Shown piece by piece: positions 5,886-60,684 of a DNA stretch of 64,000 bases; positions within the stretch are counted from its first letter, which is position 1; the number at the start of each line of letters is the position of its first letter. Source of the stretch: Branchiostoma floridae. Its lineage: Eukaryota > Chordata > Leptocardii > Amphioxiformes > Branchiostomatidae. The translations under genes were made by a program, and so were the position numbers. The stretch lies in NCBI RefSeq assembly GCF_000003815.2, contig NC_049989.1, positions 21,957,128-22,021,127 on the forward strand. Direction: 5' to 3'. The notes beneath the pieces are model-generated. The model saw only the letters and a program-made list of their open reading frames with translations. It ran no database searches and was not told the DNA's origin.

Positions 5886-6044
5886 ATGTCAAAGGTCATT
5901 TCATTGGCGTCATGTACATTTTTGAAGGGAGTCATAAAAAATTATGAGTCTTAGTGCGCAAGTGTGCAGATGTTGACGCACTGGCAGTGTTTTTTGGCAC
6001 CTTTAGACTGATTCGCCGTGAGGCTCGGTGGGCGTCACTCCACT

Positions 6045-6358
6045 GTCAAACACACAGACAGACACACAGACAGACAGACACACACAGACAATAAACCAAA
6101 CCAAACCAGACAGACACACGGACAGACAGACACACACAGACAGACACATAGACAGACACACACTCATGCGCACACACACTTACAGGCATACTCACAGACA
6201 GACAGACACACACACACATACACAGACACAAAGACAGACACACACAGACAGACACACAGACAGACAGACACACACAGACAGACACACACTCATGCACACA
6301 CACACTTACAGGCATACAGACACATGCACATACACAGACACAAAGACAGACACAAGTG
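6045..6358. repeat. (ACAGAC)n-type microsatellite
   Basis: About 310 bp of interrupted ACACAGACAGACAC units with internal higher-order duplication (CACTCATGCRCACACAC and ACTTACAGGCATAC recur). The open frames through it on both strands (TDRQTHTD peptides) result from a repeat without stop codons. Confidence 0.95.
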
Positions 6359-6420
6359 CAGGAAAGCCAGAAACAACATTTTTTCTTCCTCTAGGGTGAA
6401 GCATTCAATTTGCTATCATG

Positions 6421-7040
6421 AAGTAACCGGGAACGGGTTTTCTGCGCGTTAGAAATCTGCGCGCGCGTTAAAAATCTGCGCGTTAAAAAATTAAGTTGTG
6501 CAATGAGAAATTCTTAGGCAGAAAAATGTGACCCCATTATATGATTTTCCATCTGTTACCTGAATTTTTGGTTTGAAAAGCCCTTAATTTTAGGTCCCTT
6601 GGGAATAGGTTGATTTGCATATCCAGAAGATTTCAAAATCACTTGAATTTGACACAAATACATGGAAAAATTACTAATGTGAGGCTTTTTATTGTAAAAT
6701 ATAACAGCTTGAGGCTTTTCTCCATTCTACAAGCTTCATTTCAATCAGATTGTTTCACATGCAAATGTCAACCTTTGTTGCACATTAAAACTTAGAATTA
6801 AAAAATCACTTAAAAACTTCTGAAATATTTACAGAAAGGGATATTATACTCTAGAATGCAACAATATGATACTTAATTTCATTTTGTATTATCTTCTTCA
6901 AGCTTTTAAGTTTAAAACTGCAAAAAAGTTTTCAAATCCCCAGGGAATCAGCTAATTTGCATATCTTAACGCGCAGGGTTTTAATGCGCAAGTTTTAACG
7001 CGCAAATTTTAACGCGCACAAAACCCCAACCCAAGTAACC
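6421..7040. mobile_element. hAT-like non-autonomous transposon (MITE), 604 bp, with 8-bp target duplication
   Basis: AAGTAACC is repeated directly at 6421-6428 and 7033-7040, and an 8-bp duplication is the hallmark of hAT transposition. The element (6429-7032) has imperfect terminal inverted repeats: left GGGAACGGGTTTTCTGCGCG, right (reverse complement) GGGTTGGGGTTTTGTGCGCG. Both ends carry several subterminal GCGCGTTAAAA words, as expected for transposase binding sites. The interior is AT-rich, has no transposase frame, and carries two ATTTGCATATC octamers in symmetric positions (about 6614 and 6954). Confidence 0.85.
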
Positions 7041-7755
7041 CCCCTTTTCAACCTTATGTTCGCAGGTTGTTCTGAGAAGCCCCCCTGGTGCATGATGGGC
7101 CTGTACTAGTAAAGGTCGTCTCCCTGGAAACCAGGTCAAGTACCACATCCATAAAGAACACACAGGTAAGCAGATAATGTCTTAAATCTAGGCTCTAAAG
7201 CTGGAGGAGTTATAATAAGACACCACAGGTGTCAGGGCCCTTTATGGCTGGTAAGAGGCACCGTACCTGCACATTGGGGCCCTTCTGTGTCAGGAGTTAA
7301 GCCCTTAATGATAATGGCTGTGGATCCCTCTGCTGCCTCTTCACCAGGATTTATCATGGTGGGAATCTTACATCGCTCATGATTGTCTCTATGGGGTTAT
7401 TTACTGTATCAGCTTGAGTCTATTGTTACCGAGGCTTGTAATCCACATGGGCCACAGAGCTGTTCGTCACTTGTGAGTGGTAGGCTTTGTACAAGTCTGT
7501 TATTTCTCTGGAGAGATCAGAGAGTGATTAGTTTTTAATGGTTATAACTTTGGTATCATCTACCAGAAAAGGCAAATGGCGCTTTATACAATGTAAATGA
7601 AATTTGTTACAGCTACTAAGCAGAACTTAAGGCATTCACATATTTTACCTGGCACAAAATATCACAAAATATGGCAACAAATACTAGTGGTTGCACAAAT
7701 ATCAGGAAAAGGAAGAAAAGTGATCTGAATCCAGTTTAGCTCACTGAAGAGCTAG
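7041..7755. other. Unique stretch with a splice-bounded, non-coding segment
   Basis: CCTTATGTTCGCAG at 7065 looks like an acceptor and CACACAG/GTAAGC at 7164 like a donor, bounding about 99 bp. All three frames between them contain stops, so if it is an exon it is untranslated. From 7180 to 7740 the sequence is unique and moderately GC-rich (CCTTAATGATAATGGC, GGATTTATCATGG); nothing else is recognised. Confidence 0.2.
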
Positions 7756-9009: not shown

Positions 9010-11240
9010 AATCAGAGTGCCGTCAGAAGTACTCATCTGCCATGATACATTCAAAGTGTAGTTCTTGATGAATGAGTTGATAGATAACTTCATACAAAGA
9101 AGAGCTTGGTTAGAATTAGTTCCCATCGCTAACTTTTAGGCTAGGAACCTGACTACAATCTGCAACAGCACTTAAGCAAGTCCTGAATGGAGTTTGAAAA
9201 ATCATCTAGACATCAATTTGAGAGTGAATTACTGTGGCCTTGTGGATGCACATCTGCCATCATTATAGTTGTTGATGGATGGTTTGGATTACGGAAAGCC
9301 AGATCCCAACTTTTGGGTTCAGAAAAGGGACAGGAAATAACCACAGCACAGGAGAAGTCCTGAGGAGAGATGGATAAAACTGAAATCCAGTAGCCATTCA
9401 TTTGGAACTAAATTGCTTTATTGGCCTTGGAAATACTCATCTACCATTATGATATATGTCATTCTTGATGAATGGGTTCTTACAAGGCAAAAGTTTGGAG
9501 AACCCAATTACTAACTTTTGGGCTAGCACTTAAGCAAGTCCTGAATAGAGTTTGAAAAATCACGTAGCCATCAATTTGGAAGTAAATTGCTTTGGCCTTG
9601 TAGATACACATCTGCCATCATTATAGTTCTTTCCAAAGCAAGGTAGCTTTGCTGCGATAAGAAACCCTACTTTTGGGTTCAGGAAAGGGACAAGAAATCA
9701 TAACAGCAGTCAGCACAGTAAATCATAACAGCACAGTAAAAGACAAAGTTAAAGAAAAAGTTAAATCCAGAAACCATCAATTTGATTGAAAGTAGTTCTT
9801 TCCAAAGCATTGTAGCTTTGCTGCAATTAGAACCCTTCTTTTGGGTTCAGAAAAGGGACAAGAAATCATAACAGCACAGTAGAAGACAAGTCCTAAGAAA
9901 AAGTTCCATTCAGTAGCCATCAATTTGGAAGTAAATTGCTTTGGCCTTGTAGATGCACATCTGCCATCATTATAGTTCTTTCCAAAGCAAGATAGCTTTG
10001 CTGCGATTAGAACCCTTCTTTTGGGTTCAGGAAAGGGACAAGAAATCATAACAGCACAGTGAAAGACAAGTCCTGAGAAAAAGTTGCATCCAGTAACTAT
10101 CAATTTGTAGATATGCATCTACCATCATTATAGTTCTTGATGGATGGTTTGGATTACGGAAATCCAGATCCCAACTTTTGGGTTCAGGAAAGGGACAGGA
10201 AATAATCACAGCACAGGAGAAGTCCTGAGGAGGGATTGATAGAACTGAAATCCAGTAGCCATTCATTTGGAAGTAAATTGCTTTATTGGCCTTGGAAATA
10301 CTCGTCTATGATGTATGTCATTCTTGATAAAAAGGCAAAAGTTTGGATGGGATGAGAACCCAATTACTAACTTTTAGGCTAGAAATGGGGCTACAAACTG
10401 CAACAGCACTGAAGCAAGTCCTGAATAGAGTTGGAAAAATCATGTAGCCATCAATTTGGAAGTAAATTGCTTTATTGGCCTTGGAAATACTCATCTGCCA
10501 TTATATATAGTACTAGTATGTCATTCTTGATGAATGGATTGATACAAAGGCAAAAGTTTCGATGGGATTATTAGATAGTACCCAATTACAAACTTTTGGG
10601 CTAGAAATGGGGCTACAAACTGCAACAGCACTGAAGCAAGTCCAATATAGAGTTTGAAAAATCCAGTAGCCATCAATTTGGATTAAATTGCTGTGACCTT
10701 GGAAATACTCATCTACCATGATGATATATGTCATTCTTGATGAATGGGTTCTTACAAGGCAGAAGTTTGAAGAACCCAATTACTAACTTTTGGGCTAGCA
10801 CTTAAGCAAGTCCTGAATAGAGTTTGAAAAAAAAAAATAAGCCATCAATTTGAGAGTAAATTGCTTTGGCCTTGTAGATGCACATCTGCCATCATTATAG
10901 TTCTTTCCAAAGCAAGGTAGCTTTGCTGCGATTAGAACCCAACTTCTGGGTTCAGGAAAGGGACAGCAAATCATAACAGCACAGTGAAAGACAAGTCCTG
11001 AGAAAAAGTACCATTCAGTAACTATCAATTTGGAAGTAAATTGCTTTAGCCTTGCAGATACACATCTACCATCATTATAGTTCTTGATGGATGGTTTGAA
11101 TTCCAAAGCAAGGTAGCTTTGGTGCGATTAGATGCCTTCTTTCGGGTTAAAAAAACCAACAGGAAATCGTATAGCCGCTACTAGTACTGAGGAGAATTTA
11201 AAGAAAAAGTTAAATCTGAAAGTGAATTGCTTTGGCCTTC
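9010..11240. repeat. Large tandem array, about 12 units of 165-210 bp
   Basis: Units share CATCAATTTGGAAGTAAATT, GGCCTTGKAGATRCACATCT, CTTTTGGGTTCAGGAAAGGG and AGCAAGTCCTGA. Two subfamilies alternate: one has GTCATTCTTGATGAATGG, the other TTCTTTCCAAAGCAAGGTAG. Minus-strand frames of up to 113 codons arise from the repeat and change frame between units, so they are not genes. The alternation suggests blocks of two or more units duplicated together. Confidence 0.9.
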
Positions 11241-29375: not shown

Positions 29376-30650
29376 CAAACTCACCAGGACAGGGATCGGT
29401 TACAGAAAACTCAACCGGTCTTCATTTATAAAACTCAACCGGTCGTCATGTATAAACACCAGGACAGGGATCTATTACAGAAAACTCAACCGGACAGGGA
29501 TCGGTTACAGAAAACTCAACCGGTCTCCATTTATAAAACTCAACCGGTCCTCATTTATAAACACCAGGACAGGGATCGGTTACAGAAAACTCAACCGGTC
29601 TCCATTTATAAACACCAGGACAGGGATCGGTTACAGAAAACTCAACCGGACAGGGATCGGTTACAGAAAACTCAACCGGTCTTCATTTATAAAACTCAAC
29701 CGATCTCCATTTATAAACACCAGGACAGGAATCGGTTACAGAAAACTCAACCGGACAGGGATCGGTTACAGAAAACTCAACCGGTCTCCATTTATAAAAC
29801 TCAACCGGTCCTCATTTATAAACACCAGGACAGGGATCGGTTACAGAAAACTCAACCGGTCTCCATTTATAAACACCAGGACAGGGATCGGTTACAGAAA
29901 ACTCACCAGGACAGGGATCGGTTACAGAAAACTCAACCGGTCTCCATTTATAAACACCAGGACAGGGATCGGTTACAGAAAACTCAACCGGTCTCCATTG
30001 ATAAACACCAGGACAGGGATCGGTTACAGAAAACTCAACCGGTCTCCATTTATAAACACCAGGACAGGGATTGGTTACAGAAAACTCAACCGGTCTCCAT
30101 TTATAAACACCAGGACAGGGATCGGTTACAGAAAACTCACCAGGACAGGGATCGGTTACAGAAAACTCAACCGGTCTCCATTTATAAACACCAGGACAGG
30201 GATCGGTTACAGAAAACTCAACTGGTCTCCATTTATAAACACCAGGACAGGGATCGGTTACAGAAAACTCAACCGGTCTCTATTTATAAACACCAGGACA
30301 GGGATCGGTTACAGAAAACTCAACCGGTCTCCATTTATAAACACCAGGACAGGGATCGGTTACAGAAAACTCAACTGGTCTCCATTTATAAACACCAGGA
30401 CAGGGATTGGTTACAGAAAACTCAACCGGTCTCCATTTATAAACACCAGGACAGGGATCGGTTACAGAAAACTCAACTGGTCTCCATTTATAAACACCAG
30501 GACAGGGATCGGTTACAGAAAACTCAACTGGTCTCCATTTATAAACACCAGGACAGGGATCGGTTACAGAAAACTCAACCAGTCTCCATTAATAAACACC
30601 AAGACGGGGATTGGTTACAGTAAACTCAACCGGTCACCGTTTATAAAACT
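29376..30650. repeat. 51-bp minisatellite with 30-bp variants
   Basis: Unit landmarks are CACCAGGACAGGGATCGG, TTACAGAAAACTCAACCGG and TCTCCATTTATAAACACC. All length variants (51, 30, about 24 bp) are multiples of three, so two plus frames and one minus frame stay open, giving 17-residue peptide repeats such as HQDRDRLQKTQPVSIYK. Most unit differences are C-to-T changes at CCGG and ATCGG, changing P to L and R to W, which looks like CpG decay and not protein selection. GTCTCTGTCATTAATAA..CCTG..TCAAACTCACCAGG flanks the array on both sides (29340-29386 and 30663-30711). Confidence 0.95.
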
Positions 30651-47804: not shown

Positions 47805-48280
47805 GCTATTCTTCCACTGGTCATGACAGAGAAGACAGATGCTACTTACAATATGTACAGGTTCATTGTACCGGGAAATTCTCAAGCTGTTTTCGACAAA
47901 CACAATAAACAGTTGACCATCCTAATACCCCTGTCACATTATCCACGATCTTCTGGCGAATCGATGAAATATTAGCCATATTTAAGATCGCCTGAGAGGG
48001 CTGTGCATATTTTTCACCTGAAAACCGTCCCTGTCACATATAAGCCATACTTTGTACCTTGTACAATTGTTGTGCAATACAGTTATTATCATAAGCGAGG
48101 CCCAGCCGATTGCCGCAGAATTGTTGTCCGATCGATTTTGGCCAAATGTGACAGGTGTATAACTATAAGGACTGCAACCCTTTCCGGTAGCGTGCATGTC
48201 TGGTGACCGACACAGCAGGAATCGGATTCATGGCTTTTAGTTCCAGATGCAGAGCCACTAACCACTGGACTACGCAGGAT
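47805..48280 (-). mobile_element. tRNA-derived SINE interrupted by a nested MITE
   Basis: SINE sequence 47805-47922 plus 48163-48280 is colinear with the uninterrupted copy at 7756-7993. On the minus strand the head has an A-box, TAGTCCAGTGG (48272-48262), and a B-box-like GAATCCGATTCC (48229-48218). Confidence 0.65.
47926..48159. mobile_element. Harbinger-like MITE nested in the SINE, TAA target duplication
   Basis: Terminal inverted repeats TACCCCTGTCACATT and (right, reverse complement) TACACCTGTCACATT match at 14 of 15 positions. TAA flanks both ends (47923-47925 and 48160-48162), the TWA-type 3-bp duplication of PIF/Harbinger elements. Length 234 bp, no transposase. The empty site is preserved at 7.9 kb. 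Confidence 0.85.
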
Positions 48281-48407
48281 AACATGAATACAGAGTTTGA
48301 AGAGAATACATTGAAGTTTGTACCTTGTAGTTGATATTTCTTAAGTCAGACCCAAGTTTTCTCCCATTGAGCCATGAGACTTGATGTACCCAGGGCAGCT
48401 GAACACC

Positions 48408-48440
48408 CACACTGGGGAGCAACCCTCTCTGTGTGACCCC
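48408..48440 (+). pseudogene. Zinc-finger linker remnant, plus strand
   Basis: The plus strand reads NTHTGEQPSLCDPG: H-T-G-E-x-P followed three residues after P by a cysteine, as in the C2H2 linker and start of the next finger (TGEKP-[FY]-x-C). The second cysteine and the histidine pair are absent. It is opposite in orientation to all the remnants to the right. Confidence 0.4.
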
Positions 48441-48546
48441 GGCCTGACCCCTGTATCAGCAGCGCAGAATGAAAACATCACGACCTTATCTGACACCGAG
48501 GCCGTTGCACCCAGCGTCGGTCAATACCAGTTCTTTGTAAACTCCC

Positions 48547-48560
48547 GTTGCCATGGCAAC
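48547..48560. promoter_or_regulatory. Perfect RFX X-box palindrome
   Basis: GTTGCCATGGCAAC, an exact 14-bp palindrome matching the RFX consensus, in a GC-richer unique stretch (48390-48560). Confidence 0.5.
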
Positions 48561-48856
48561 TCAACGATTTCACAGATTATTGGGAAGCTTTCCATTTGCA
48601 CATGGTAGATAAGTAAAGAAACATACAGCCTGCCAACAAAGACTTCATTATCTAACAGGGTATCAGGGAAGCTACCGGCCTCAGGGGATCGTTCATTACG
48701 TCGTAAGGCTGGGGATTAAAGGCTTATGTTCTCATTCCACACCACAAGCTTCCCTGGTTGGTACTGGACGATCCACATGGCATACTGAACACTCGCTATG
48801 GCTGCTTGGATTGTGGGGGAATCAAGGTCTCCTGCAAATGAGAGCCAGGTAAGATG

Positions 48857-49437
48857 TGGTCTTTCTCCAGTGTGGGTTTTCATGGTTACTCTTCAGTGTG
48901 GGTTTTCATGGTTAGTCTCCAGTGTGGGTTTTCATGGTTACTCTCCAGTGTGGGTTTTCATGGTTAGTCTCCAGTGTGGGTTTTCATGGTTAGTCTCCAG
49001 TGTGGGTTTTCATGGTTAGTCTCCAGTGTGGGCTTTCATGGTTAGTCTCCAGTCTGGGCTTTTATGGTTAGTCTCCAGTGTGGGTTTTTATGGTTACTCT
49101 CCAGTGTGGGCTAACATGGTTAGTCTCCAGTGTGGGTTTTCATGGTTAGTCTCCAGTGTGGGTTTTCATGGTTACTCTCCAGTGTGGGTTTTCATGGTTA
49201 GTCTCCAGTGTGGGTTTTCATGGTTAGTCTCCAGTGTGGGTTTTCATGGTTACTCTCCAGTGTGGGTTTTCATTGTTACTCTCCAGTGTGGGCTTTCATG
49301 GTTAGTCTCCAGTGTGGGCTTTCATGGTTAGTCTCCAGTGTGGGTTTTTATGGTTACTCTCCAGTGTGGGCTAACATGGTTAGTCTCCAGTGTGGGTTTT
49401 CATGGTTACTCTCCAGTGTGGGTTTTCATGGTTCCAG
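48857..49437 (-). repeat. 27-bp minisatellite whose unit encodes a zinc-finger linker (antisense)
   Basis: About 21 copies of GTCTCCAGTGTGGGTTTTCA plus TGGTTA. The reverse complement reads T-M-K-T-H-T-G-D, a near-exact C2H2 linker start (HMKTHTGE). The outermost unit, at 48857-48883, keeps a full T-M-K-T-H-T-G-E-R-P. Variants change single bases (TTTTA, GGCTAACATGG). The unit is 27 bp, so frames stay open, but there are no metal-binding Cys or His pairs. Confidence 0.85.
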
Positions 49438-49528
49438 TGTGGTTTCTGTGCAGGAGAAAGGCAACTGCACAACTTTTATGTCAACTGAGTGAAATCAACT
49501 ATTCATCACTGAAGGGCTGGGAGTAGTT

Positions 49529-50370
49529 CAAAATGTGAAGGGTCACTCTCCAGTGTTTAAGTTTGGTAAGGTGAGGCCATTATCTTTCCAAGTTTGCCCT
49601 AAGGACAGTGTTGACATGTAGCCTAACACGACCCGTATGCCGGGCTACTCTCCAATGTGAGTTTCAGGTTCATAAGGTGAGGCTATATTAGGCCGTTAGC
49701 TTCCCAAGTTCGCACTAAGGAAAATGTTGTGTTGACATGTAGCTTAACACAACCCATTTACAGGGCTACACACCACTGTGGGTTTCGGGGATCAAAATGT
49801 GAAGTCGTTATACCTTATAAAGTCATCCCTGAGGATATTACTTAATGTTAGCATGTGGCTGTGCTTGTGTCATTATTCAGGGTTAGTCTCCACTGTGGGG
49901 TTGTAGGAAGTTCACAAGGTCAGAGTTTAATCCAGTATTTCATGTTAGCACTGTAAACAGAGCATGGTTACTCACCTGTGTGGTAGTTTTACACAAGATG
50001 AAGTTAACTGACAAACCCCCTGAGAACTCAGTTGTATTATCTCATGCATGGAAACTTTGCATAGGCAGCCTTTAGTGGTTGGTCACCTCTGTGGGTTTTT
50101 TTTACTCCATTATTGATATCAGTACCAGCCTGTAATATTGGCAGCCTGGCTTGTCACATACAGGGTTACTCACCAGTGCATGCTCACACACTCACCAGGT
50201 ATGGTCTCTCACCTCTGTAAGTTTTTATTAACAGCTTACCTGGCAGTAATGTAGTATCTTCAGGTGACCTTTATCTGGTAAAGGTGATCAGGTAGCACAT
50301 GTTGACATCAGGCCTTAAGTGCATGGCTTCTCACCTGTGTGGGGTTTTATGGTTTTCCTGGCTTACAGAT
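49529..50370 (-). pseudogene. Diverged, irregularly spaced zinc-finger-linker remnants
   Basis: Sites about every 110 bp read on the minus strand as H-x-G-[ED] variants: N-T-G-E at 49540, T-H-I-G-E at 49650, P-H-S-G-D at 49885, Y-H-T-G-E at 49972 and K-T-H-R-G-D at 50090. The last, 50324-50352, is an intact T-I-K-P-H-T-G-E-K-P. Between sites, AGGTGAGGC, CCCTAAGGA and GTTGACATGTAGC words repeat, so this is also an old tandem array. Confidence 0.5.
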
Positions 50371-50385
50371 CTGTATTTAGGTGCC

Positions 50386-51640
50386 CCACATGTGTACTGA
50401 AGGTTATCAGCTGGCACCTGTCCAGCGGTATCGGTGCTACAGTCCGGTGGTTTGTCCCCAGTGTGGAGACCTGTATATTATCAGGTAGGGTTCCTCACCT
50501 GTACATGTGTGGGTTTTTATTGTGACCTTTACCATGCTCTAGTGTTATATGACCTGTATACATGTGGCAAGGGTTATCAGCTGGCTGGCACCTGTCCAGT
50601 AGTGTTGGTGCTAGTCTGGTGGTTTGTCCCCAGTGTGGAGACACTGTTTATTGTCAGGTAGGGTTCCTCACCTGTGTAGGTTTTTACAGTGACCTTTATG
50701 TATACCTTGCTGTAGTGTTATGTGGCCTGTATACATGTGGCAAGGGTTATCAGCTGGCTGGCACCTGTCCAGCGGTATCGGTGCTACAGTCCGGTGGTTT
50801 GTCCCCACTGTGGAGACCTGTATATTGTCAGGTAGGGTTCCTCACCTGTGTAGGTTTTTGCTGTGACCTTTATGTATACCTTGCTGTAGTGTTATATGGC
50901 CTGTATACATGGCAAGGGTTATCAGCTGGCTGGCACCTGTCCAGCGGTATCGGTGCTACAGGCCTGTGGTTTGTCCCCAGTGTGGAGACCTGTATATTGT
51001 CAGGTAGGGTCCCTCACCTGTACATAAATGTGGGTTTTTATTGTGACCTTTACCATGCTCTAGTGTTATATGACCTGTATACATGTGGCAAGGGTTATCA
51101 GTTGGCTACAGTCCAGTTGCTCCTGCTGTATAGATTGGTATATTATATTGTCAGGTACCATATTGTCTCTCTGGCACCTCTCAGAGTTTTTATTGTGAAC
51201 TTGACCTTGTTGTAGTGTTATACTTCCTGTATTCATGTGGCTATCAGTTGGCGCTATTCCTGGAGATCAGCATATTGTCAGGGTTTTTCACCTGTGTGGG
51301 GTTTTCCTGTGAACTTTACCTTGCTGTAGTGTTCTATGATCTGTATACATGTGGCAAGGGTTATCTGGTGGCACATGTCCAGTTGTTTTTGCTGCAGGCC
51401 TGTGGTTTCTCACCAGTCTGTTGATTGGTATATTGTCAGGTAGGGCTCCTCCCCTGTGTGGGTTTTTATTGTGACCTTCACCTGACTGTAGTGTTATATG
51501 ACCAGTATACATGTGGCAAGGGTCATCAGTTGGTACAGGTGCAGTTTTCGCTGCTGCAGGCCTGTGGTTTCTCACCAGTGTGGAGATTGGTGTGATGTCA
51601 GGTAGAGTTCCTCACCTCTGTGGGTAACTTTTTATTGTGA
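50386..51640 (-). repeat. About 185-bp tandem array carrying half zinc fingers (antisense)
   Basis: Seven or so units share GGGTTATCAGCTGGC, GCACCTGTCCAGCGGTATCG, GGTTTGTCCCCAGTGTGGAG, GGTAGGGTTCCTCACCTGTG and TTATTGTGACCTTTACC. Each unit encodes two linkers on the minus strand: K-T-Y-T-G-E-E-P-Y-L-T and L-H-T-G-D-K-P-P-D-C. One unit (51541-51582) reads H-T-G-E-K-P-Q-A-C-S-S-E-N-C, a linker followed by the C-x4-C of a finger. The plus-strand frame of 217 codons (50562-51215) is a by-product. Confidence 0.8.
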
Positions 51641-51756
51641 TAAATGTATTTACCTGGCTGTAATGTTCATCAGCTTTGCTCATAGTCATATAGCAAGGGT
51701 TATCAGTCGTTACCAGTCCAGTTGTCCTGCTGCAGGCCTGTGGTTCCTCACCTGAG

Positions 51757-51798
51757 ATAGGGTTTCTCTCCAGTGCGGATGTCGGTGTGACTGTACAG
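51757..51798 (-). pseudogene. Best preserved zinc-finger remnant
   Basis: The minus strand reads L-Y-S-H-T-D-I-R-T-G-E-K-P-Y-L-R then a stop. This is L-x2-H-x3-[H changed to R]-T-G-E-K-P-Y, the exact spacing of a C2H2 helix end plus linker. The cysteine expected two residues after Y is missing, and a stop lies three codons downstream and another upstream. Confidence 0.65.
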
Positions 51799-51837
51799 CT
51801 CCAGCCTGATAAATCACACCCAGTCTTATCTCCTCAT

Positions 51838-52095
51838 CCATGTGTTTGTAGCACAGAAGGGAAAGTGCTCAGTGGTCTGATACAGTGCTTGTATCACGAA
51901 AGTAAGAGTGATGACAATTGATACCGGTCTCGTATCCCAAAGGGAAAATGATGACAGTTTGATATGGGTCTTGTATCCACAGAGAGAAAGTGATGACAGT
52001 TTGATACAGCGCTTGTAGTACAAAAGTGAAAGTGATGAAGATTTGATAGAGTCCTTGTAAGACAGAGGTGAAAGTGCTGACAGTATGATACAGTA
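51838..52095. repeat. 62-bp minisatellite, four copies
   Basis: GAAAGTGATGACAGTTTGAT, ACAGYGCTTGTA and TC.C.AGAG recur at about 51880, 51945, 52005 and 52065. Confidence 0.85.
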
Positions 52096-52387
52096 CTGCA
52101 GGTGTACACAGGTGGGATTAGATGCTGAGATGCTCACCTGTATTACAGATGGTCCAGCACCATTGTGTGTGTTTGAATGTTTGATGTATAATAATTGTGT
52201 GCACTTTTAACATTTATTGTTATACATGTATATTCAGTTCATGTTCAAGGCTTTATCAGTGTGGTATAATTTGAGAGGCTTTGAGAGGCTTTATCAGTTC
52301 ATTAGCTGTGATACAAAATTCTAAAAAATTGTACACTGCTAATCTTCTTGGACATATGTAAAAATACGCACATAACATAACACAATT

Positions 52388-52462
52388 TCCTGTGGTTTCT
52401 TACTAGTGTGGATTTCAATAAAAACGTGAACACTTCCAGTTGGTCTGTCTCCACTGTGGATG
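52388..52462 (-). pseudogene. Two zinc-finger-linker remnants
   Basis: The minus strand reads E-I-H-T-S-K-K-P-Q at about 52388-52413 and D-I-H-S-G-D-R-P at about 52440-52461. No cysteine or upstream histidine is in register. Confidence 0.45.
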
Positions 52463-52639
52463 TCAGTAATAACACACACAAGACTGAGCACTGCTGCTGC
52501 AGGTTAACCTCTGGGTTCAGCCCCTTTGTGAGTTCCAACATTCCCCATCTATCCCTCCTCCGGCCCCCTGTCTGGTACCCATCCATCTCCTCTACTCCAT
52601 CCCTCAGCCCTGTATAAAGCCAGTTGTTACTCCGTGATG

Positions 52640-52800
52640 CTGTAACCCCGGGTGATGAGGTACCAGTGATGATGATGGAGTACCAACGATGATGAATGAT
52701 ACGCCAAAAAGCAGTTACTCCAGACCTGCAGCTGAATATGATGTTGGAAATGGTCGGATGTTTCAGGTACCATCCACTAACTTTTGTCAGATCAGTAGAG
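52640..52800 (-). mobile_element. Retroelement-derived dispersed repeat, family E
   Basis: The minus strand reads L-T-K-V-S-G-W-Y-L-K-H-P-T-I-S, then SCRSGVTAFWRI. The same peptide skeleton appears on the plus strand at 55866-55912 and 61835-61925. This repeated translated word looks to me like a common lancelet LINE 3' region; I cannot assign a clade. Confidence 0.45.
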
Positions 52801-52831
52801 ATCAGGTGTTCAACCAAAAATTGTGCATTGG

Positions 52832-53155
52832 CAGGGATAAGCAAGTCCACTAGCCCTGTTGTCCAGGGCGAGTGAAAGTGCTGTTCGGGCAAGTGCATGT
52901 CCTACCCCACTTGTCCGATCGGGCAAGTAAGATTTTTCCATTGATTTTAGTGCAATTTTGATATACTTGTTACTTTTTACAGTCATGACATCAAGCAATT
53001 GTCTACAGAGAATTCCATTGCTGGAAGTGAAAATGCATATACTAGTAACAGTGACATTTGAATTTTGGGCAAGTGAAAAATTGGTTCGGGCAAGTACATT
53101 TTTTATGTGCTTGCCCGATAGGACAAGTGGATTTTAGAAAACTTGTTCAACCCTG
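52832..53155. mobile_element. Non-autonomous DNA transposon with 5-bp target duplication
   Basis: ATTGG flanks both ends (52827-52831 and 53156-53160). Termini CAGGGATAAGCAAGTC and (right, reverse complement) CAGGGTTGAACAAGTT match at 12 of 16 positions. Internal GGGCAAGT/ACTTGCCC words recur in both orientations. 324 bp, non-coding. CAGGG termini with a 5-bp duplication suggest a hAT5-like group, but the superfamily is uncertain. Confidence 0.75.
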
Positions 53156-53371
53156 ATTGGTATTCCAGTTGGGCTGTGAGAAAATTTTAGAGACAAATCA
53201 ATAATACAAAGACAAAGTCTTCTCTGCATCCCTATTTCACCAGTGAGGTTGGAATGATGATTGATAGTTTCTGCACCTTGCTATTGTGAGCTATCAGAGC
53301 TCATACCTGTTATTTGCTCTGTCCATCTGTCTCTGTTGAGTGTTTGTGGTCACCACTCTCTCATTTCTGCT

Positions 53372-53396
53372 TGGTTTCTCCCCACTGCGGATATGC
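53372..53396 (-). pseudogene. Zinc-finger-linker remnant
   Basis: The minus strand reads H-I-R-S-G-E-K-P. The histidine of the linker has become arginine, as at 51757, and no finger body follows. Confidence 0.4.
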
Positions 53397-53851
53397 AACT
53401 TTTTGTGGTAGAATTGTAAGGGAGGCATCTCACAGTCAAGGACGATGCACCATCAACTTTTCCCTTGTTCCTGGCAGGATCTTGAATGACAGATGCACAA
53501 CTTTCTATAATTTCTCGTTTTAATATAATCATCATATAACAAGTCTTACTGCATGGGCACCTGATCAGTTTGCCCAAAGTCATCATTTCCTGTAACATCC
53601 CACCCTAATTATAACACTGTCTCCTGACTCTGTTATTGTCTGAGTCCTCCCCAAACCATCCCCTACTATCCACCTCATCAGTCCCAGGTGTCACATTCCC
53701 CCCTTGTGTGTGGTTAACCACCAGTGTGCAGACAGAGAAATTTGATCCGCTTGCTCGGTACTCTGTCTTAACTGGCCAATCAGCAGCCACGTAATCCTGT
53801 AATGCTTCATCTGGGACCAACTTTCCTCTCCTTACCCACAAATCACCAGCG

Positions 53852-54226
53852 ATGGAGTTCTGAATTATGGTCTCACACCACTGTTGAGTTCTGAAATATG
53901 GTCTCTCACCACTGTGGAGTTCTGAATCACGGTCTCTCACCAGTGTGGAGTTCTGAAATATGGTCTCTCACCAGTGTGGAGTTCTGAATTACGGTCTCTT
54001 ACCAGTGTGGAGTTCTGTATCATGGTCTCTTACCAGCTCTGGAGTTCTGAATTACGGTCTCTCACCAGCTCTGGAGTTCTGAATTACAGTCTCTCACCAG
54101 TGTGGAGTTCTGAATTACGGTCTCACACCAGTGTGGAGTTCTGTATCACGGTCTCTCACCAGTGTGGAGTTCTGTATCACGGTCTCTCACCAGTGTGGAG
54201 TTCTGTATCACGGTCTCTCATCTTTG
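53852..54226 (-). repeat. 31-bp minisatellite whose unit encodes E-L-H-T-G-E-R-P (antisense)
   Basis: About 12 copies of GGTCTCTCACCAGTGTGGAG plus TTCTGAATTAC. The reverse complement reads [DN]-[TS]-E-L-H-[TS]-G-E-R-P, a complete C2H2 linker. Because the unit is 31 bp, each successive copy shifts frame, so it cannot encode a repeat protein. Left-end copies are decayed (NSGVRP). Confidence 0.85.
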
Positions 54227-54284
54227 TAGAGCTAAGTATCATAAGTTTAGGTAGTTTGTGTAGTTTTGTCTTGAGTCTAGTTGT

Positions 54285-54970
54285 GAGGCAGTGGTTGATC
54301 ATGAATACTTCTGTCTGGTATGCTACCCTTAGTCCCAGACATTGCTTGCCTGTTTCATGGCTTTTCAAGTCTTTGTGCCTTTGTCTTGAGATTTGGAGAG
54401 TTGCAGACAAGTATCTGTATCTTGATAAGAGACAGTTTTTGATCATGACTACTTGGTATGATGCTTTTAGTCCATGACTTTACCTGCCAACTAATTCCTG
54501 GCTTTGTGTCTTTGTCTTGAGATTTGGAGAGTTGTAGTCAAGAATCTGTGTCTGTTGCTTAGGAAATGGCTGTTTTTATCAAAAATGTTTGTTAATGTGC
54601 AGCTCTTAGTCCCAGACTTTGCTTGCCTGATTCCTGGATTTTCAAGTCTCTGTGTTTTTGTCTTGAGATTTGGAGTGTTGTTGGCAAGTATCTGTGTCTG
54701 TGTCTTGAGAGACAATTGATCATGAATGTTTGGTATGCAGCTTTTAGTCTCCAACTTTGCCTGCCAGCTGATACCTGGCTTTCCGAGTCTTTGTGCCATT
54801 GTCTTGAGTCACGGTAGATTGTAGATATAAGTAGTATCTTCAAGTTGAGAGCAGTTGTTGATCATGACAGTTTGGTATGCAGCTCTTAGTCTTCGACTTT
54901 GCCTGCCAACTGATACCCGGCTTTCCAAGTCTTTGTGCCTTTGTCTTGAGTCACGGTAGGTTGTCGATGA
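54285..54970. repeat. About 140-bp tandem array, five units
   Basis: TTGATCATGAATRCTT, GGTATGCAGCTCTTAGTCYC, TTTGCCTGCCAACTGATACC and TTTGTGCCTTTGTCTTGAGA recur at about 54295, 54438, 54575, 54717 and 54857. Continuous with the 31-bp array but unrelated in sequence. Confidence 0.9.
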
Positions 54971-55857
54971 GTAGCGTCTTGAGAGACGTAAGGAGGCAGC
55001 CGAGAATCCCTGCCTGATCCGGCCTTCTTTGTCCCGGACTCCACCGCAGCCAGTCTGTCTGCCCTCAGCTGACCTCGGCATAGCCCGGGTCGGCTGTATA
55101 CATCATCATGATGCATGGTCCTGTCCATATGGGGCCTTGGGAGCAATCTTCAGACACTTTGAACTTCAGGCACCCCTCTGTGCTCCTTCAGAAGATCCTT
55201 AAGATTTAGATAAGATACGCAGGATGTCTCAAGGCACTATAAGATTACAGCTGTTCTAATGGTATCCGGGAAGATAGCGATGCAATATTTCATTCCAACG
55301 ACAGTTTAAGCTGGTACAAGTCAACTCCACTGTTAACTTATTTCCTCTTGGTCCACCCACTGGATTTCCTTTATCTCTGCACTATTTCTTATCTCTAGAC
55401 CCTTAACCTGGGGATTTAGCTACTTGAAGACATCTTCAGCAAAGTTAGAGCAAAGATGTTGAAGGCTGTTGAGGGAGACTTACCACATTCTGTCCATCCG
55501 CAGCCCTAACATTCCTAACCTTCAAACGTTCCTCTGTAATTTCCCTGATTGATCCTGGGAATCCCCAGTGAGGAATGGTTCGGTCCGATGTACAAGCAAT
55601 TATGTTTCGATCCGGAACGTTCCAATTGATTGGAGGGTGGGTGTTGATTGGCCGGGTTAATAAGGTGACCAGAGGACTTCATTAGCTATTGATGTTCAAT
55701 AGTGCGATTTGGGTCGGCGTGGATCTATCACAAAAGATGTCAGCTGTGTTTCCCTCCGGCCAGAACAAGTTAATGTGCTGCTTCTTGGATTCAGACAGAT
55801 AATGCTAGACTGGAAGGTCCACTTAAAATAGTACTATCGTCTGAGAGGAACATCTGT
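54971..55857. other. Unique stretch including a GC-richer island
   Basis: 55500-55760 has homeodomain/PBX-type words (CCCTGATTGATCC, CCAATTGATTGGAGG, TTGATTGGCCGGGTTAAT, CTTCATTAGCTATTGATG) and no repeat match. I see no gene. Candidate enhancer. Confidence 0.3.
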
Positions 55858-55940
55858 ACCTTGGTGGAACTGACAAAAGGTAGTGGACATTATCTGAAAT
55901 GCCTGACCATTTCCAAGATGTATTGCTTATTAAGTAATTG
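55858..55940 (+). mobile_element. Family E retroelement-derived fragment
   Basis: The plus strand reads ELTKGSGHYLKCLTISKM, aligning with the 52.7 kb (minus) and 61.84 kb (plus) copies. From 55941 to 56240 nothing else is seen. Confidence 0.4.
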
Positions 55941-56248
55941 TTGTCCTAGTATGCAACTTATTACCTGCATCAATGGACCTTGTGCTTGGTACACACAGTT
56001 TTGGGGAGGGAATGGTTTTGTCTTCAGTCTCTTAATAACATATTTTCATTCAAATTGCAAGAGAACTTAGAAAATGAATTGACGATGCCTTAGTAAGACC
56101 AGATTTGAATCAAGTGGAAAAATTAGGCACCTGAATGCAGTGTTTGAAAACACTCTAAGACTTAATACATTAAAGTTACATTATACAACACAATGAAGGA
56201 AATTGCACAAGTCAATGACATCATAAACAATTCTCTTAAGAAGCTGCA

Positions 56249-56262
56249 GTTGCCATGGCAAC
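56249..56262. promoter_or_regulatory. Perfect RFX X-box palindrome
   Basis: GTTGCCATGGCAAC, identical to 48547 and 58932 but with unrelated flanks (CTGCA.../ACTAGATAG). Confidence 0.5.
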
Positions 56263-56574
56263 ACTAGATAGACCACAAACCTGTAGAGCCTATGCATTTA
56301 GACCCACCCTACGATACATAATGAACAGTCCCCTGGTGAAATAAGCCTGCTACAGAAGCTTTAAAGACTTTCACTTTCGCTTGAAACATTTCCCGACAGT
56401 TAAACAAATGCTGCCCACTTTCTCCTGCATCGACCGCGCGCGTTATATCGGGCTCGTTAAAGCCGCGGGATCACAGTATTGGTTAGCTGGGCAATCCGTA
56501 CTGATGACACCAATATGTAAACAGGGTAAACCTTCCTCGCTGTAGAATTAAGTAGAATTACACACAAGAACACT

Positions 56575-56750
56575 GGTCACTTGGTAAGTCTCCACTGTGG
56601 GTTTCACACAACATCTGGCTGAACAACTGGTCAGATGGTCAGTCTCCACTGTGAGTTTTAGATAACATCTCTTGGGGAACCGGAGAGTGAGTGTCTGAGT
56701 GAGTGAGTGAGTCTTGCTGAATAGATGGTCAGTCCCCACTGTGTGTTTCA
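56575..56750 (-). repeat. Three diverged units with H-S-G-D linker remnants
   Basis: CAGTCTCCACTGTGAGTTTY at about 56587, 56641 and 56731 reads on the minus strand as [KE]-T-H-S-G-D. GGTCAG and TGCTGAA words flank each. A short GAGT microsatellite lies between the last two. Confidence 0.55.
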
Positions 56751-56892
56751 GAATGGAGATTAAAGCATTATTGGAAAGTAAAGAATCAATTGCAGACTTG
56801 AATAGGATACAGAAAATGGATTTAAACATAAAATGTTCCTTCCTCTTGTTTGATTGAGACAATATGTCCTGATTCTTATTACCTATTGATTC

Positions 56893-57073
56893 ATCTCCAA
56901 GCAGATCCTACGGTAGCATAAGTTAGCATCAAAAACAGAAGGCAGAAGACTGAAGAGTTTAGCTTTGGAGTGTGTTTCGCTACTCGGGCAAGGCAAATGT
57001 ACACCTCTTGGCTGACTACACTCCTTGGCCAGTTTGGTACTATCTTATGCCATTGTAGGATCTGCTTGGAGAT
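56893..57073. mobile_element. MITE with ATCTCCAAGCAGATCCTAC termini
   Basis: Inverted termini ATCTCCAAGCAGATCCTACG (left) and ATCTCCAAGCAGATCCTACA (right, reverse complement) continue into RTRGCATAAG. 181 bp, non-coding. TTC precedes the left end and follows the right end, a possible 3-bp target duplication. I recall this terminus as abundant in lancelet DNA. Confidence 0.8.
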
Positions 57074-58140
57074 TTCCTAATATTGATATCCGTTGTATGA
57101 ATTGCCATGGTTGAACAGCTGTTCTCCGGGTCCCTCCCCACTGCGAGTCTTATTACATGGCGTATTGATCACCTCAGCCGGTCTCGGAATGAGCTCCTTT
57201 AAGTCGTTCATCTTCAGCTGACCCCAGTGGACCTGAGAAACGGTAAACATCTTAAGGAACAGATCCTTCCTGCTGTGTTACATCCAAGGACATGCAGGTC
57301 TTAATCTTAACCCTGTTACCTTGAGTGACTCCTTTTTAACCCTTTGGCAGCTGAGACAGGCTTTCAGCTCTAGATTGTTTTTGGACAAAGCAGAAGGAAG
57401 AGGGTTAGATGACTCCTATACCAAGCAGGATGAATGTTTTAAGCTTCTCCCTGCTGCCTTACTCAATGGATAATTGGTAGACAAACTTCTTCAGTGTTCT
57501 AAGGGATAAAGTACATGATTGTGAAGAATCACCTTAGGACAGTGTGTGTGTATCTCATCATGAGCAGAAGCAATAGAGTACCAAAACTCTTTGTACACTT
57601 TATTTACCTTCCTCAGGACGATTCTGACTGGTTCACATTGTACTGTCAGAGTTGTAACCAAAACATTTGTTTTGAATGAAGCACTTGGTTCTGAAAGAAA
57701 TTTTTTATCCACTCATCCAAAGCTCAGGTCAATAGTCGAAGGACAGGGAAAATGCAGGAGAAACGCAGCCTGCAGAAGAGGATGCATTGACTGTATGACA
57801 TAGCTTTCCGTGGGCAGTGACTAACTAAGCTTATGAAACTGTTCTAAGAGCAGAAGTGACAGTTTAAAAAGAAGAACCAGTGAATACAAAAATGTATATC
57901 TATCTCTGAGATCGGAAAAGGAACAATATTTCACATTGCAGCAAGATGACAAGACAAGGATTACAATTTCTCCCAATTCACATTTTTGTTAGAATGTCTC
58001 CCATTTCTGTTATCTGTGATATTTAAGACATGAAATGTGATACTCTACGGAGACGTTTTAAGTACAGTTCCCATACAGACCACTGACGGGGCATACATCA
58101 CAACCCTCCCCCATGCCGAGATCCTGACAGCTCATACTTT
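57074..58140. other. Unique stretch, one doubtful linker remnant
   Basis: At about 57130-57150 the minus strand reads T-R-S-G-E-G, a weak relative of the linker sites. Short frames on both strands at 57491-57803 are not recognised. Otherwise nothing is seen. Confidence 0.3.
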
Positions 58141-58400
58141 ACTACTCGTCCCCGCTGTCCTCCCTTTGTGTGTAATCTGATCCGTTGGCGGCGCGGCGGG
58201 CGTGATGAATGGTGGAGGGAGCTCGGGTTACGTCCGTGACGTATGCGCCACTTGTGCTACTCGAGTTTGGGACTGGAAGGAATCTTTTCCCCGCCAGGAC
58301 CCATCCGTCTTCCGCGCCGTCTTATTGTGGGACGGAAGACGTCTTCAATCATGTCTTAGATATAAGGAAGGCAGAGACGTCGGGTGTGGCTTGTGCAGGG
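58141..58400. other. CpG-rich island
   Basis: TGGCGGCGCGGCGGGCGTGA and GGTTACGTCCGTGACGTATG (CRE-like TGACGTA) in unique DNA. Overlapping frames are open on the plus strand, unrecognised. A promoter or enhancer is possible; no TATA box or transcript end is seen. Confidence 0.3.
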
Positions 58401-58914
58401 AATCACAAAGTCTTATTCCGTTATGTAGCAGATGCTAAGTTCAATAAACTTTGTTTTCTATCAAATTCTATCAAATAAAGTTCAATACAATTAGACAGAA
58501 TTGTTCTAGCTTTTAACGAAAAATTGACTATTCCTACATGCTCACAAAAAAGGTAAGAAGCTTTTCTTTCTGACCTGATTGTTAACAAATTTAGTGAAGT
58601 AGACAATTTTCACACAAAAAAAATGACTTTAGTGACACACTGTTTTTAATAAAATGTATCAGGCTAATTTAGGACATACAATTCCATGCATTACACCAAT
58701 TTTCACTGGTACTGGGACAAAAATTGCATCTGTTTTCTTGTATCTTATAGCCTAACTTCATCCCACAAATGAAATGCACTGCCAGAGTTCATTACTACCC
58801 AGTCCATGACTTGTACATGTTTTCCTGAAATATACCCTTTATCAAGAAGAAAGACTGCAGCACTGCAGATTTCTCCACTCTCCTCTTCAAGAGCCCTGCG
58901 GCATGATGAAGGAT

Positions 58915-59110
58915 GCTCTCAAGATGCTGCTGTTGCCATGGCAACGTCATGAGACACGGGCCGCGATGAGCGTTCCTCATCAGCGGGTACTTGTGGGATT
59001 AGCGGAGGCCGGTCGGTACGGCGCCCGCGGCGGGGAAGTGGCTCGGGTTTCAAGTTGTGCGGAGTAAAATATTCCCTGAGTTGCGGCTGAATATCAGTGA
59101 TGTTTGCTGT
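58915..59110. other. GC-rich island with X-box
   Basis: Unique DNA (GGTCGGTACGGCGCCCGCGG, GAATATCAGTGATGTTTGC) next to the perfect X-box at 58932-58945. Candidate regulatory element. The stretch 58401-58914 is AT-rich and empty, as is 59111-59635. Confidence 0.3.
58932..58945. promoter_or_regulatory. Perfect RFX X-box palindrome
   Basis: GTTGCCATGGCAAC, third exact copy, at the left edge of a GC-rich island. Confidence 0.5.
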
Positions 59111-59635
59111 ACATAAATCTCCTACCTGATCCATGGTCTGGTCTTCTGGGATGAATACAGGGCTGGAAATACTTGCAAAGCTCAGTCATACTGAACACAT
59201 ACTAGAACACTTTCCCAATGTGATTCTTATGTATGACTGAATGATATAGAAACAAAATCCAATAGAATCATACCTAATATCCATGGATAATTGATTTTTC
59301 TTATGCATAATTAGCCCCAAAGATTTTTGACTGTGCACCAGTGTATCAAGATATCTGTATAGGGTTAAAATGACTCGAATGTACATGCTATGATTGTACA
59401 CTGGTGTCAGAAAAATAATAGAATCTTTATTTGTTCTATCACTTGTTAAAAATTTTGGAGTTAGTTACAGAATTTCAGATCCATAGCTCTAGAGAGAGAC
59501 AGTGAGGTTTCTTTTGTTGACGGGTTTTACTTTATCTGTGCACTCAAAACCTTTTCAGCAGTGCATCTATTCACCGAAATTGATTCTAAGCGTCAGAACA
59601 ACTTGTTAATTCTAGTCTGTCCCTATTGAGATCTT

Positions 59636-60140
59636 CTGGAGGCAGGTGGGCACAGTGAGTTGTTTTATGGAGTCAAATACTCCCAGAGTTACAGAATATC
59701 ACATGGTGAATATCCAGCCAACTCTGTCTTCTGATAAAACATGTGCTGGTCTGTCTCCACTGTGAGTCTCAGAGCTTGTGTTGTGGGATAGTGAGGACCA
59801 GTGGGTGCAGTGAAGAGTTGCTTTATGGAGTCAAATACTCCCAGAGTTACAGAATATCACGTTTCCTGCATGCAAATCTCCTGTACCAACTTTGTGTTCC
59901 AATCTTCTGGGACGAACAACTGACGGACTGGTGTGTCCCCACTGCGAGTCTCGGAGCTTGTATTGTGGGATAGTGAGGACCAGTGGGCGCAGTGAAGAGT
60001 TACTTTATGGAGTCAAATACTCCCAGAGTTACAGAATATCACATTTCCTGCATGCAAATCTCCTACCAACTTTGTGTTCCAATCTTCTGGGATGAACAAC
60101 TGACGAGCTGGTGTATCCCCACTGCGAGTTTCCGCGCTTG
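59636..60140 (-). repeat. About 182-bp tandem array with linker remnants
   Basis: TGGAGTCAAATACTCCCAGA, GTTACAGAATATCACATTTC, CAACTTTGTGTTCCAATCTT and GTCTCGGAGCTTGTATTGTG repeat three times. At each unit start the minus strand reads E-T-H-S-G-D-R-P (59747) or T-R-S-G-D-T-P (59930, 60113), the rightmost zinc-finger-type remnants. Confidence 0.85.
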
Positions 60141-60475
60141 TAAAATCCATCAGAAACAGACTCTGAGGTGATGGAAAGGTGTTATATGGAGAAGCAGAAG
60201 ACTGGACGGGTCCCCTCGCTTCCTTGTATCATGTTCACATCCATAAATCCTCAGGAAATTTGTGCTGCCAACCTTTAGGGCCCGATAAACATGTCATCGT
60301 CTCGGTGAGTTATGCTAGCTGGAGAGTTTTTATATACGGTATCGAGGGATGGAGAACAGGAAATCATGTCCTGAGCTGCTCAGTTTCATGTTCATAGTCC
60401 ATAAACATGCTGGACTGGAGCGTAATACAGAGTAAATCAGGCAACTGGGGAAAGTCTCCAAAGATGTTTCTGATA

Positions 60476-60684
60476 CTGTAAAATGTATTTAAGTTCGCGG
60501 GGACTTAATCTCACGGTAGCCGGAAAAAGTACTTTTCGCGGTGGATTTAAGTTCGCGGTAACACCATAGACTGCAGTCCAATACCATAATAGAAAAATGT
60601 GCGCAGTGGAGTTAATTTCGCGGTGAAGTGGTCACCGCGAAAACCGCGAACATTAATCCACCGCGAACATTTCTGCATTTACAG
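60476..60684. mobile_element. MITE of the TTCGCGGTG family, copy 2, TA target duplication
   Basis: Termini CTGTAAAATGTATTTAAGTT and (right, reverse complement) CTGTAAATGCAGAAATGTT; TA on both sides (60474-60475 and 60685-60686), as for Tc1/mariner-type insertions. GCGGTGGA and ACCGCGAA words give a long near-palindrome. Opposite orientation to 25045-25250. Confidence 0.88.

Follow-up and report, generated by a model that had tools for sequence, protein, structure and literature searches.

A linker-coding word of C2H2 zinc fingers shared by unrelated tandem arrays in an apparently non-coding lancelet region

How can tandem arrays with unrelated units come to share one embedded word, and why does this word read, almost exclusively on one strand, as the linker between two zinc fingers? 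The question is raised by a region at 48.4–60.2 kb of a 64-kb stretch of the Branchiostoma floridae genome (C11:21957128–22021127, hereafter the window; assembly of 513 Mb in 431 contigs), which appears to be non-coding. Successive C2H2 zinc fingers (zf-C2H2) are joined by a TGEKP linker, and the word found in this region is coding DNA for the end of the finger helix plus this inter-finger linker (K/R-T-H-T-G-E-K-P). Source material for such words is plentiful: exact TTNTCNCCNGTRTG sites number 9512 (5075 + 4437) in the genome, as compared to 400 (212 + 188) for the reversed pattern, and the first 100 of them are mostly spaced by 84 bp or double this distance, indicating a genome rich in ordinary C2H2 genes. 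The explanation that we favour, with a probability of about one half, is that the words are relics of a C2H2 array that were reused as homology for repeated tandem duplication or unequal exchange. In the following, words are counted on the minus strand of the window, and the adjacent 100 kb, which include 8,910 N bases, serve as flanking comparison.

How strong is the strand bias? All 15 occurrences of the strict protein motif H[ST]G[ED][KR]P in the window lie on its minus strand within 48.4–60.14 kb, leaving none for the plus strand, and the relaxed pattern H-x-G-x-x-P occurs 57 times on the minus strand (47 in the region) versus 5 times on the plus strand (1 in the region). Scanning for the 17-base linker core CACASWGGNGANNNACC, exactly and with at most one mismatch, yields 38 exact sites and 58 sites with up to one mismatch on the minus strand versus a single site on the plus strand, all of them inside the region. 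That merely 15 sites match the strict protein motif is due to the 26-bp array, whose 22 words include 18 of the form HTG[DE]-stop-P. In the flanks the core is absent from both strands in its exact form and present once on the plus and never on the minus strand with one mismatch, and H[STI]G[ED][KRQ]P is missing altogether. When the 26- and 31-bp arrays are collapsed to single units, 15 exact and 29 one-mismatch sites remain on the minus strand versus 1 and 1 on the plus strand, while simulating the minus strand 60 times with an order-3 Markov model gives means of 0 and 0.07 and maxima of 0 and 1, respectively. Strand asymmetry and simulations together rule out a chance origin of the words. The initial annotation had proposed dozens of antisense linker sites and a core shared by independent arrays beyond chance, and both proposals are borne out, also when confronted with the density on the plus strand, where one good site (48408) is located. 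A 25-bp position weight matrix (PWM) trained on the region's own words gives the same picture at a site threshold of at least 14, with 66 minus- and 1 plus-strand sites in the window, none after reversal of the window and 1 after complementing it. If each group of words is left out of the training in turn, 19 of the 20 groups still score at least 18.8, the remaining one (53728) scoring 9.2.

What does the word consist of? Among 28 hand-chosen representatives information is confined to positions −6 to +18 relative to the CAC codon, with sharp edges; the hand selection inflates the word itself, not the silence outside of it. The consensus of 20 groups, likewise assembled by hand, is AAAACCCACACTGGTGAGAAACCAT and translates into KTHTGEKP, with all eight residues encoded. 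Compared with a lancelet finger profile built from 95 two-finger segments (L019–L023), this consensus scores 12.0 bits, a value reached by none of 3000 shuffles, the best reported shuffle scoring 7.0. Two sites extend further into finger-like sequence and are the only such extensions with E < 0.01 in the window: 48396–48436 on the plus strand, the best nhmmer match to the profile (columns 73–113, 14.6 bits, E 0.0013), and 51806–51727 on the minus strand (columns 53–125, 14.2 bits). The reversed window yields at most 3.8 bits.

The words are distributed over the following features (window positions and strand of the words).

48402..48426, plus strand: strong word reading QLNTHTGEQPSLC, the sole one in opposite orientation (PWM 32.6)
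48864..49433, minus strand: 26-bp tandem array with 22 words, HTG[DE]-stop-P in 18 cases; the last word (48874) is canonical HTGERP
49539..49903, minus strand: degenerate 102–121-bp units with words at 49557, 49659, 49780 and 49897
49964..50347, minus strand: word group spaced mostly by 111–126 bp with weakly related spacers; words at 49982, 50093, 50180, 50219 and 50341
50410..51107, minus strand: 172–174-bp array, each unit holding two words at a distance of about 40 bp, from tandem-repeat and spacing analysis
51280..51783, minus strand: degenerate continuation of the 172–174-bp array; words at 51298, 51420, 51460, 51582, 51622 and 51777, the last having the longest finger-like match
52392..52464, minus strand: two words, at 52410 and 52458, from the PWM
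53371..53395, minus strand: isolated word RSGEKP, from core scan and PWM
53710..53734, minus strand: isolated degenerate word, PWM only 9.2 when left out of training
53843..54242, minus strand: 31-bp array of about 12 copies with one word per unit, some degenerate, from tandem-repeat search (53843–54220) and PWM
56568..56749, minus strand: 54-bp duplication with one additional copy; words at 56599, 56653 and 56743
57127..57151, minus strand: isolated word RSGEGP, from core scan and PWM
59646..60142, minus strand: units of about 180 bp; words at 59764, 59946 and 60126

The arrays thus have periods of 26, 31, 54, 172–174 and about 180 bp, in addition to the degenerate 102–121-bp units. Of the three periods given in the initial annotation, that of 31 bp is correct, the one of 27 bp is 26 bp and the one of about 185 bp is 172–174 bp; units of about 180 bp are found at 59.65–60.14 kb. 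Between 49.56 and 51.8 kb the words follow each other in steps of 40–41 or 102–134 bp, with one step of 85 bp and two longer ones (155 and 314 bp). The 26-bp array also has a higher-order pattern, a run of variant units (with TGTTAG and TAAAAA starts) being repeated ten units apart (49368 and 49108).

How are these arrays related to each other? Self-comparison of the region with BLAST produced 51 matches (49 direct, 2 inverted); the 37 listed omit pairs internal to the 26- or the 31-bp array. Among the matches listed, those between arrays are 24–32 bp long and cover the word. Devoid of the word are a 44-bp match (56219–56262 with 58902–58945), both inverted matches and, in the ~180-bp array, one spacer (59061–59155). 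At E 0.01 BLAST does not connect the 31-bp array with any other array, and its link to the rest consists of the word pattern and the PWM alone. The locus is therefore not defined by a single unit family; arrays with unrelated units have the word in common. For the seven spacers at 49.66–50.34 kb the mean z-score is 1.85, with z > 3 in 3 of 21 pairs, and a single pair (16.6) drives much of this mean; the spacers at 50341 and 50219 still resemble those of the 172-bp array (z 3.8–6.6).

How could unrelated units end up around one and the same word? According to the explanation favoured here, the words would descend from a C2H2 finger array formerly located on the minus strand, most of the finger DNA would have been lost through insertions, deletions and decay, and the surviving words, being short direct repeats, could have provided the homology on which unequal exchange or slippage acted. 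If exchange occurs between neighbouring words, the period of the new array equals the distance between these two words, and array edges located at words are the trace to be expected. The 26-bp array is indeed bounded by words: it is directly preceded by a half-word, its end falls on word position +11, and its outermost word continues as canonical HTGERP instead of the stop-bearing form, suggesting that the words were probably there first and the arrays arose later. The 3′ edge of the 31-bp array lies near +10 within a word, as judged by eye, the computed phase consensus having drifted because of indels; the edges of the 172-bp and ~180-bp arrays are less clean. That words remained alike while spacers diverged could be due either to homogenisation between words or to the DNA word itself being under selection. 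The initial annotation had offered a decayed zinc-finger cluster and a slippage-prone word as alternatives. The two fit in combination, with words existing first and then providing homology for duplication, but plain decay of whole fingers is unsupported, since the finger columns beside the word are free of signal and the spacing is not 84 bp.

A number of observations weigh against a descent from fingers. Beyond the linker and the codons immediately upstream hardly any finger column is kept. The Cys columns (+24, +25, +33 and +34) carry 0.02–0.11 bits, the position of the first His matches in 11–32% of the 28 words as compared to 84–100% of 97 coding fingers, and the Leu column is at background level as well. 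At −6 and −5 the word reads RA, in contrast to the CG that predominates in the coding fingers sampled, all of which come from contig C1. The 84-bp finger period is absent among the words except for the one 85-bp spacing. Scanned with Pfam at E values up to 10, the region's 11 stop-to-stop frames of at least 100 aa, the frame lengths covered, gave no match to zf-C2H2; all Pfam rows for the region's frames are far under the cut-off and zinc fingers are not among them. An intact or merely frameshifted finger gene is ruled out by the profile and Pfam searches. Arrays without any word lie inside the region (51846–52093 and 54276–54968). Moreover, the flanks contain 9 plus- and 0 minus-strand PWM sites scoring at least 14, all in two arrays (L009 and L014), and single finger profile matches as well, of 12.3 bits in L014 (extending into finger-like sequence with E < 0.01) and 10.0 bits in a splice-like array of L015, so that single extended matches carry little weight. 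The two flank arrays, at 4160–4772 of L009 and 3724–4186 of L014, lie on the plus strand and their sites are partly word-like, with PWM scores of up to 20.6.

The Lys codon of the linker deserves separate mention. Among the 58 sites it appears as AAA, AAG, TAA, TGA, TTA, GAA, GAG, GGA, AGA, ACA or CAA, its first two bases being variable and the third mostly A, and it is a stop codon in 27 of the 58 words, 21 of these 27 belonging to the 26-bp array. As this codon behaves contrary to coding constraint, a codon-position signature was dropped as proof of a coding origin. In comparison to C2H2 genes and pseudogenes the locus is thus alike in that the word corresponds to the linker plus helix end and keeps one orientation apart from one strong site, but it differs by the missing C-x-x-C and first-His signals and 84-bp period, by the lack of a finger in frames of at least 100 aa, and by the stops at the Lys codon.

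Could the likeness to a linker be accidental? In an ordinary minisatellite mosaic a seed word that resembles a linker by accident would have been spread by tandem duplication, and a finger gene would never have existed. The scarcity of finger structure and the word-less arrays would fit such a history, as would the abundance of unrelated minisatellites elsewhere in the window (40 tandem-repeat rows, several per array); furthermore, the words possibly form one lineage, in which case their number is not independent evidence. An accident of this kind would nevertheless have had to hit all eight residues of KTHTGEKP with a fit to the finger profile that the 3000 shuffles never attained, and to account for the two sites that extend into finger-like sequence; we consider it rather unlikely. 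The region does have the head-to-tail tandem units of minisatellites, 26 to about 180 bp long, and the higher-order pattern of the 26-bp array is likewise minisatellite-like; it differs from them in consisting of several arrays with unrelated units and one embedded word in common.

Is the word itself under constraint? It is more alike than its flanks in 7 of 7 site sets (for example 0.98 versus 0.87, 0.71 versus 0.53 and 0.85 versus 0.40), two of which overlap within one array, and the 26-bp set comprises only 2 flank columns. Since sites were picked by their match to the word, its conservation is inflated. Among sliding 25-bp windows in five sets, one site being dropped from each of two of them, the word ranks 2/95, 1/145, 26/145, 36/160 and 4/50. 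Pairwise comparison of nine consecutive units at 49.56–50.47 kb puts the best 25-mer match at the in-register word in 21 of 36 pairs; this match joins a word to a second word in 7 further pairs (by eye), lies outside the words in 7 and is a same-letter overlap in 1. Variation between groups correlates with that inside arrays (pooled rho 0.46, p 0.02), with 1 of 6 arrays reaching p < 0.05 alone and the 31-bp array being negative. Taken together, this pattern is suggestive and points to constraint or homogenisation, short of proof.

Constraint would be expected if the words were kept as DNA, as a homotypic cluster bound by a zinc-finger protein that recognises DNA coding for linkers, the gene being dead or never having been there. 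There is a precedent in human ZNF274, for which a 29-mer motif is described that encodes linker plus H2 helix and lies in the 3′ exons of ZNF genes (Frietze 2010, PMC2999557). Other articles mention six ZNF274 sites in the SNORD116 cluster (PMC7536080) and an anchoring of tandem gene clusters by ZNF274 (PMC11397430). As far as these descriptions go, the lancelet locus is similar in having a DNA word that encodes linker and helix (here the helix end) with several sites per cluster; ZNF274, however, is a human KRAB/SCAN protein, and the lancelet word is known from sequence and likened to the 29-mer by description only. With such binding sites the sharp edges of the word at −6 and +18, its greater likeness than that of its flanks in the 7 site sets, the word-to-word matches of the nine-unit comparison with z > 3 in merely 3 of 21 spacer pairs, the Lys codon that escapes coding constraint, and variation within arrays at the same positions as between groups would all be consistent. 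The selection of sites by word match, the ranks of 26/145 and 36/160, the pairs matching best outside of words or by same-letter overlap, and a correlation that reaches p < 0.05 in 1 of 6 individual arrays and is negative in the 31-bp array speak against it, and a uniform orientation is unnecessary for binding sites. We know of no lancelet protein that reads linker DNA. Preservation as a binding array seems unlikely, and it is quite improbable that the linker word alone has outlived its gene and been multiplied as a one-orientation, non-coding landing array, an independent invertebrate counterpart of the ZNF274 system.

Alternatively, the repeats might act in RNA, the region being transcribed into a non-coding RNA in which the word binds a protein or serves splicing. 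The strand bias of 58:1 is compatible with a transcript, and some words contain, by reading, a splice-donor consensus (CAG/GTGAGT). GGT, which a donor requires, is however present in 19 and missing in 39 of the 58 words, ruling out a splice-donor array as common denominator. A known structured RNA is ruled out as well, as Rfam finds no family at gathering score in 48000–60500 and, of 8 stretches folded, all are unremarkable except for one below z −2 (the 26-bp array, z −2.45). A function of the words in RNA is very improbable.

Further elements were encountered within and near the window. Inside the region, 56893–57074 (182 bp, 41-bp terminal inverted repeats, 84% copy in L023 on C1) is likely a miniature inverted-repeat transposable element, and 52698–52793 is a dispersed repeat with matches in L009, L012, L016, L018, L019 and L020 and a partial inverted copy at 55867–55919. 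Elsewhere in the window, 51-bp tandem arrays with long stop-free plus-strand frames (472 and 456 aa) are located at 29377–30647, and a minus-strand frame at 10798–11127 has a weak, below-cutoff match to Pfam Defensin-like (E 0.00025). Segment 5000–8200 of L015 (C11 ~22,036,100–22,039,300) forms, by reading, a large inverted repeat; its inner 51-bp tandem units (5968–6412 and 6667–7103, inverted at 7134–7428) contain the splice-site-like pieces TTTCCTTT..ACAG, CAGGTAAG and CAGGTGAGT. The whole resembles a foldback element carrying splice-like repeats.

What could the locus mean more generally? Non-coding repeats consisting of the linker alone were not found in titles and abstract openings of the open-access literature, which is no proof of novelty. 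To our knowledge, lancelets lack KRAB-type silencers of the ZNF274 kind. If the word were under selection, the recognition of linker DNA, as by human ZNF274, would be extended to the lancelet. The locus would represent a repeat class that is defined by one word coding for a protein motif and not by its unit, and its array edges hint at a way in which an embedded word may give rise to minisatellites of any period.

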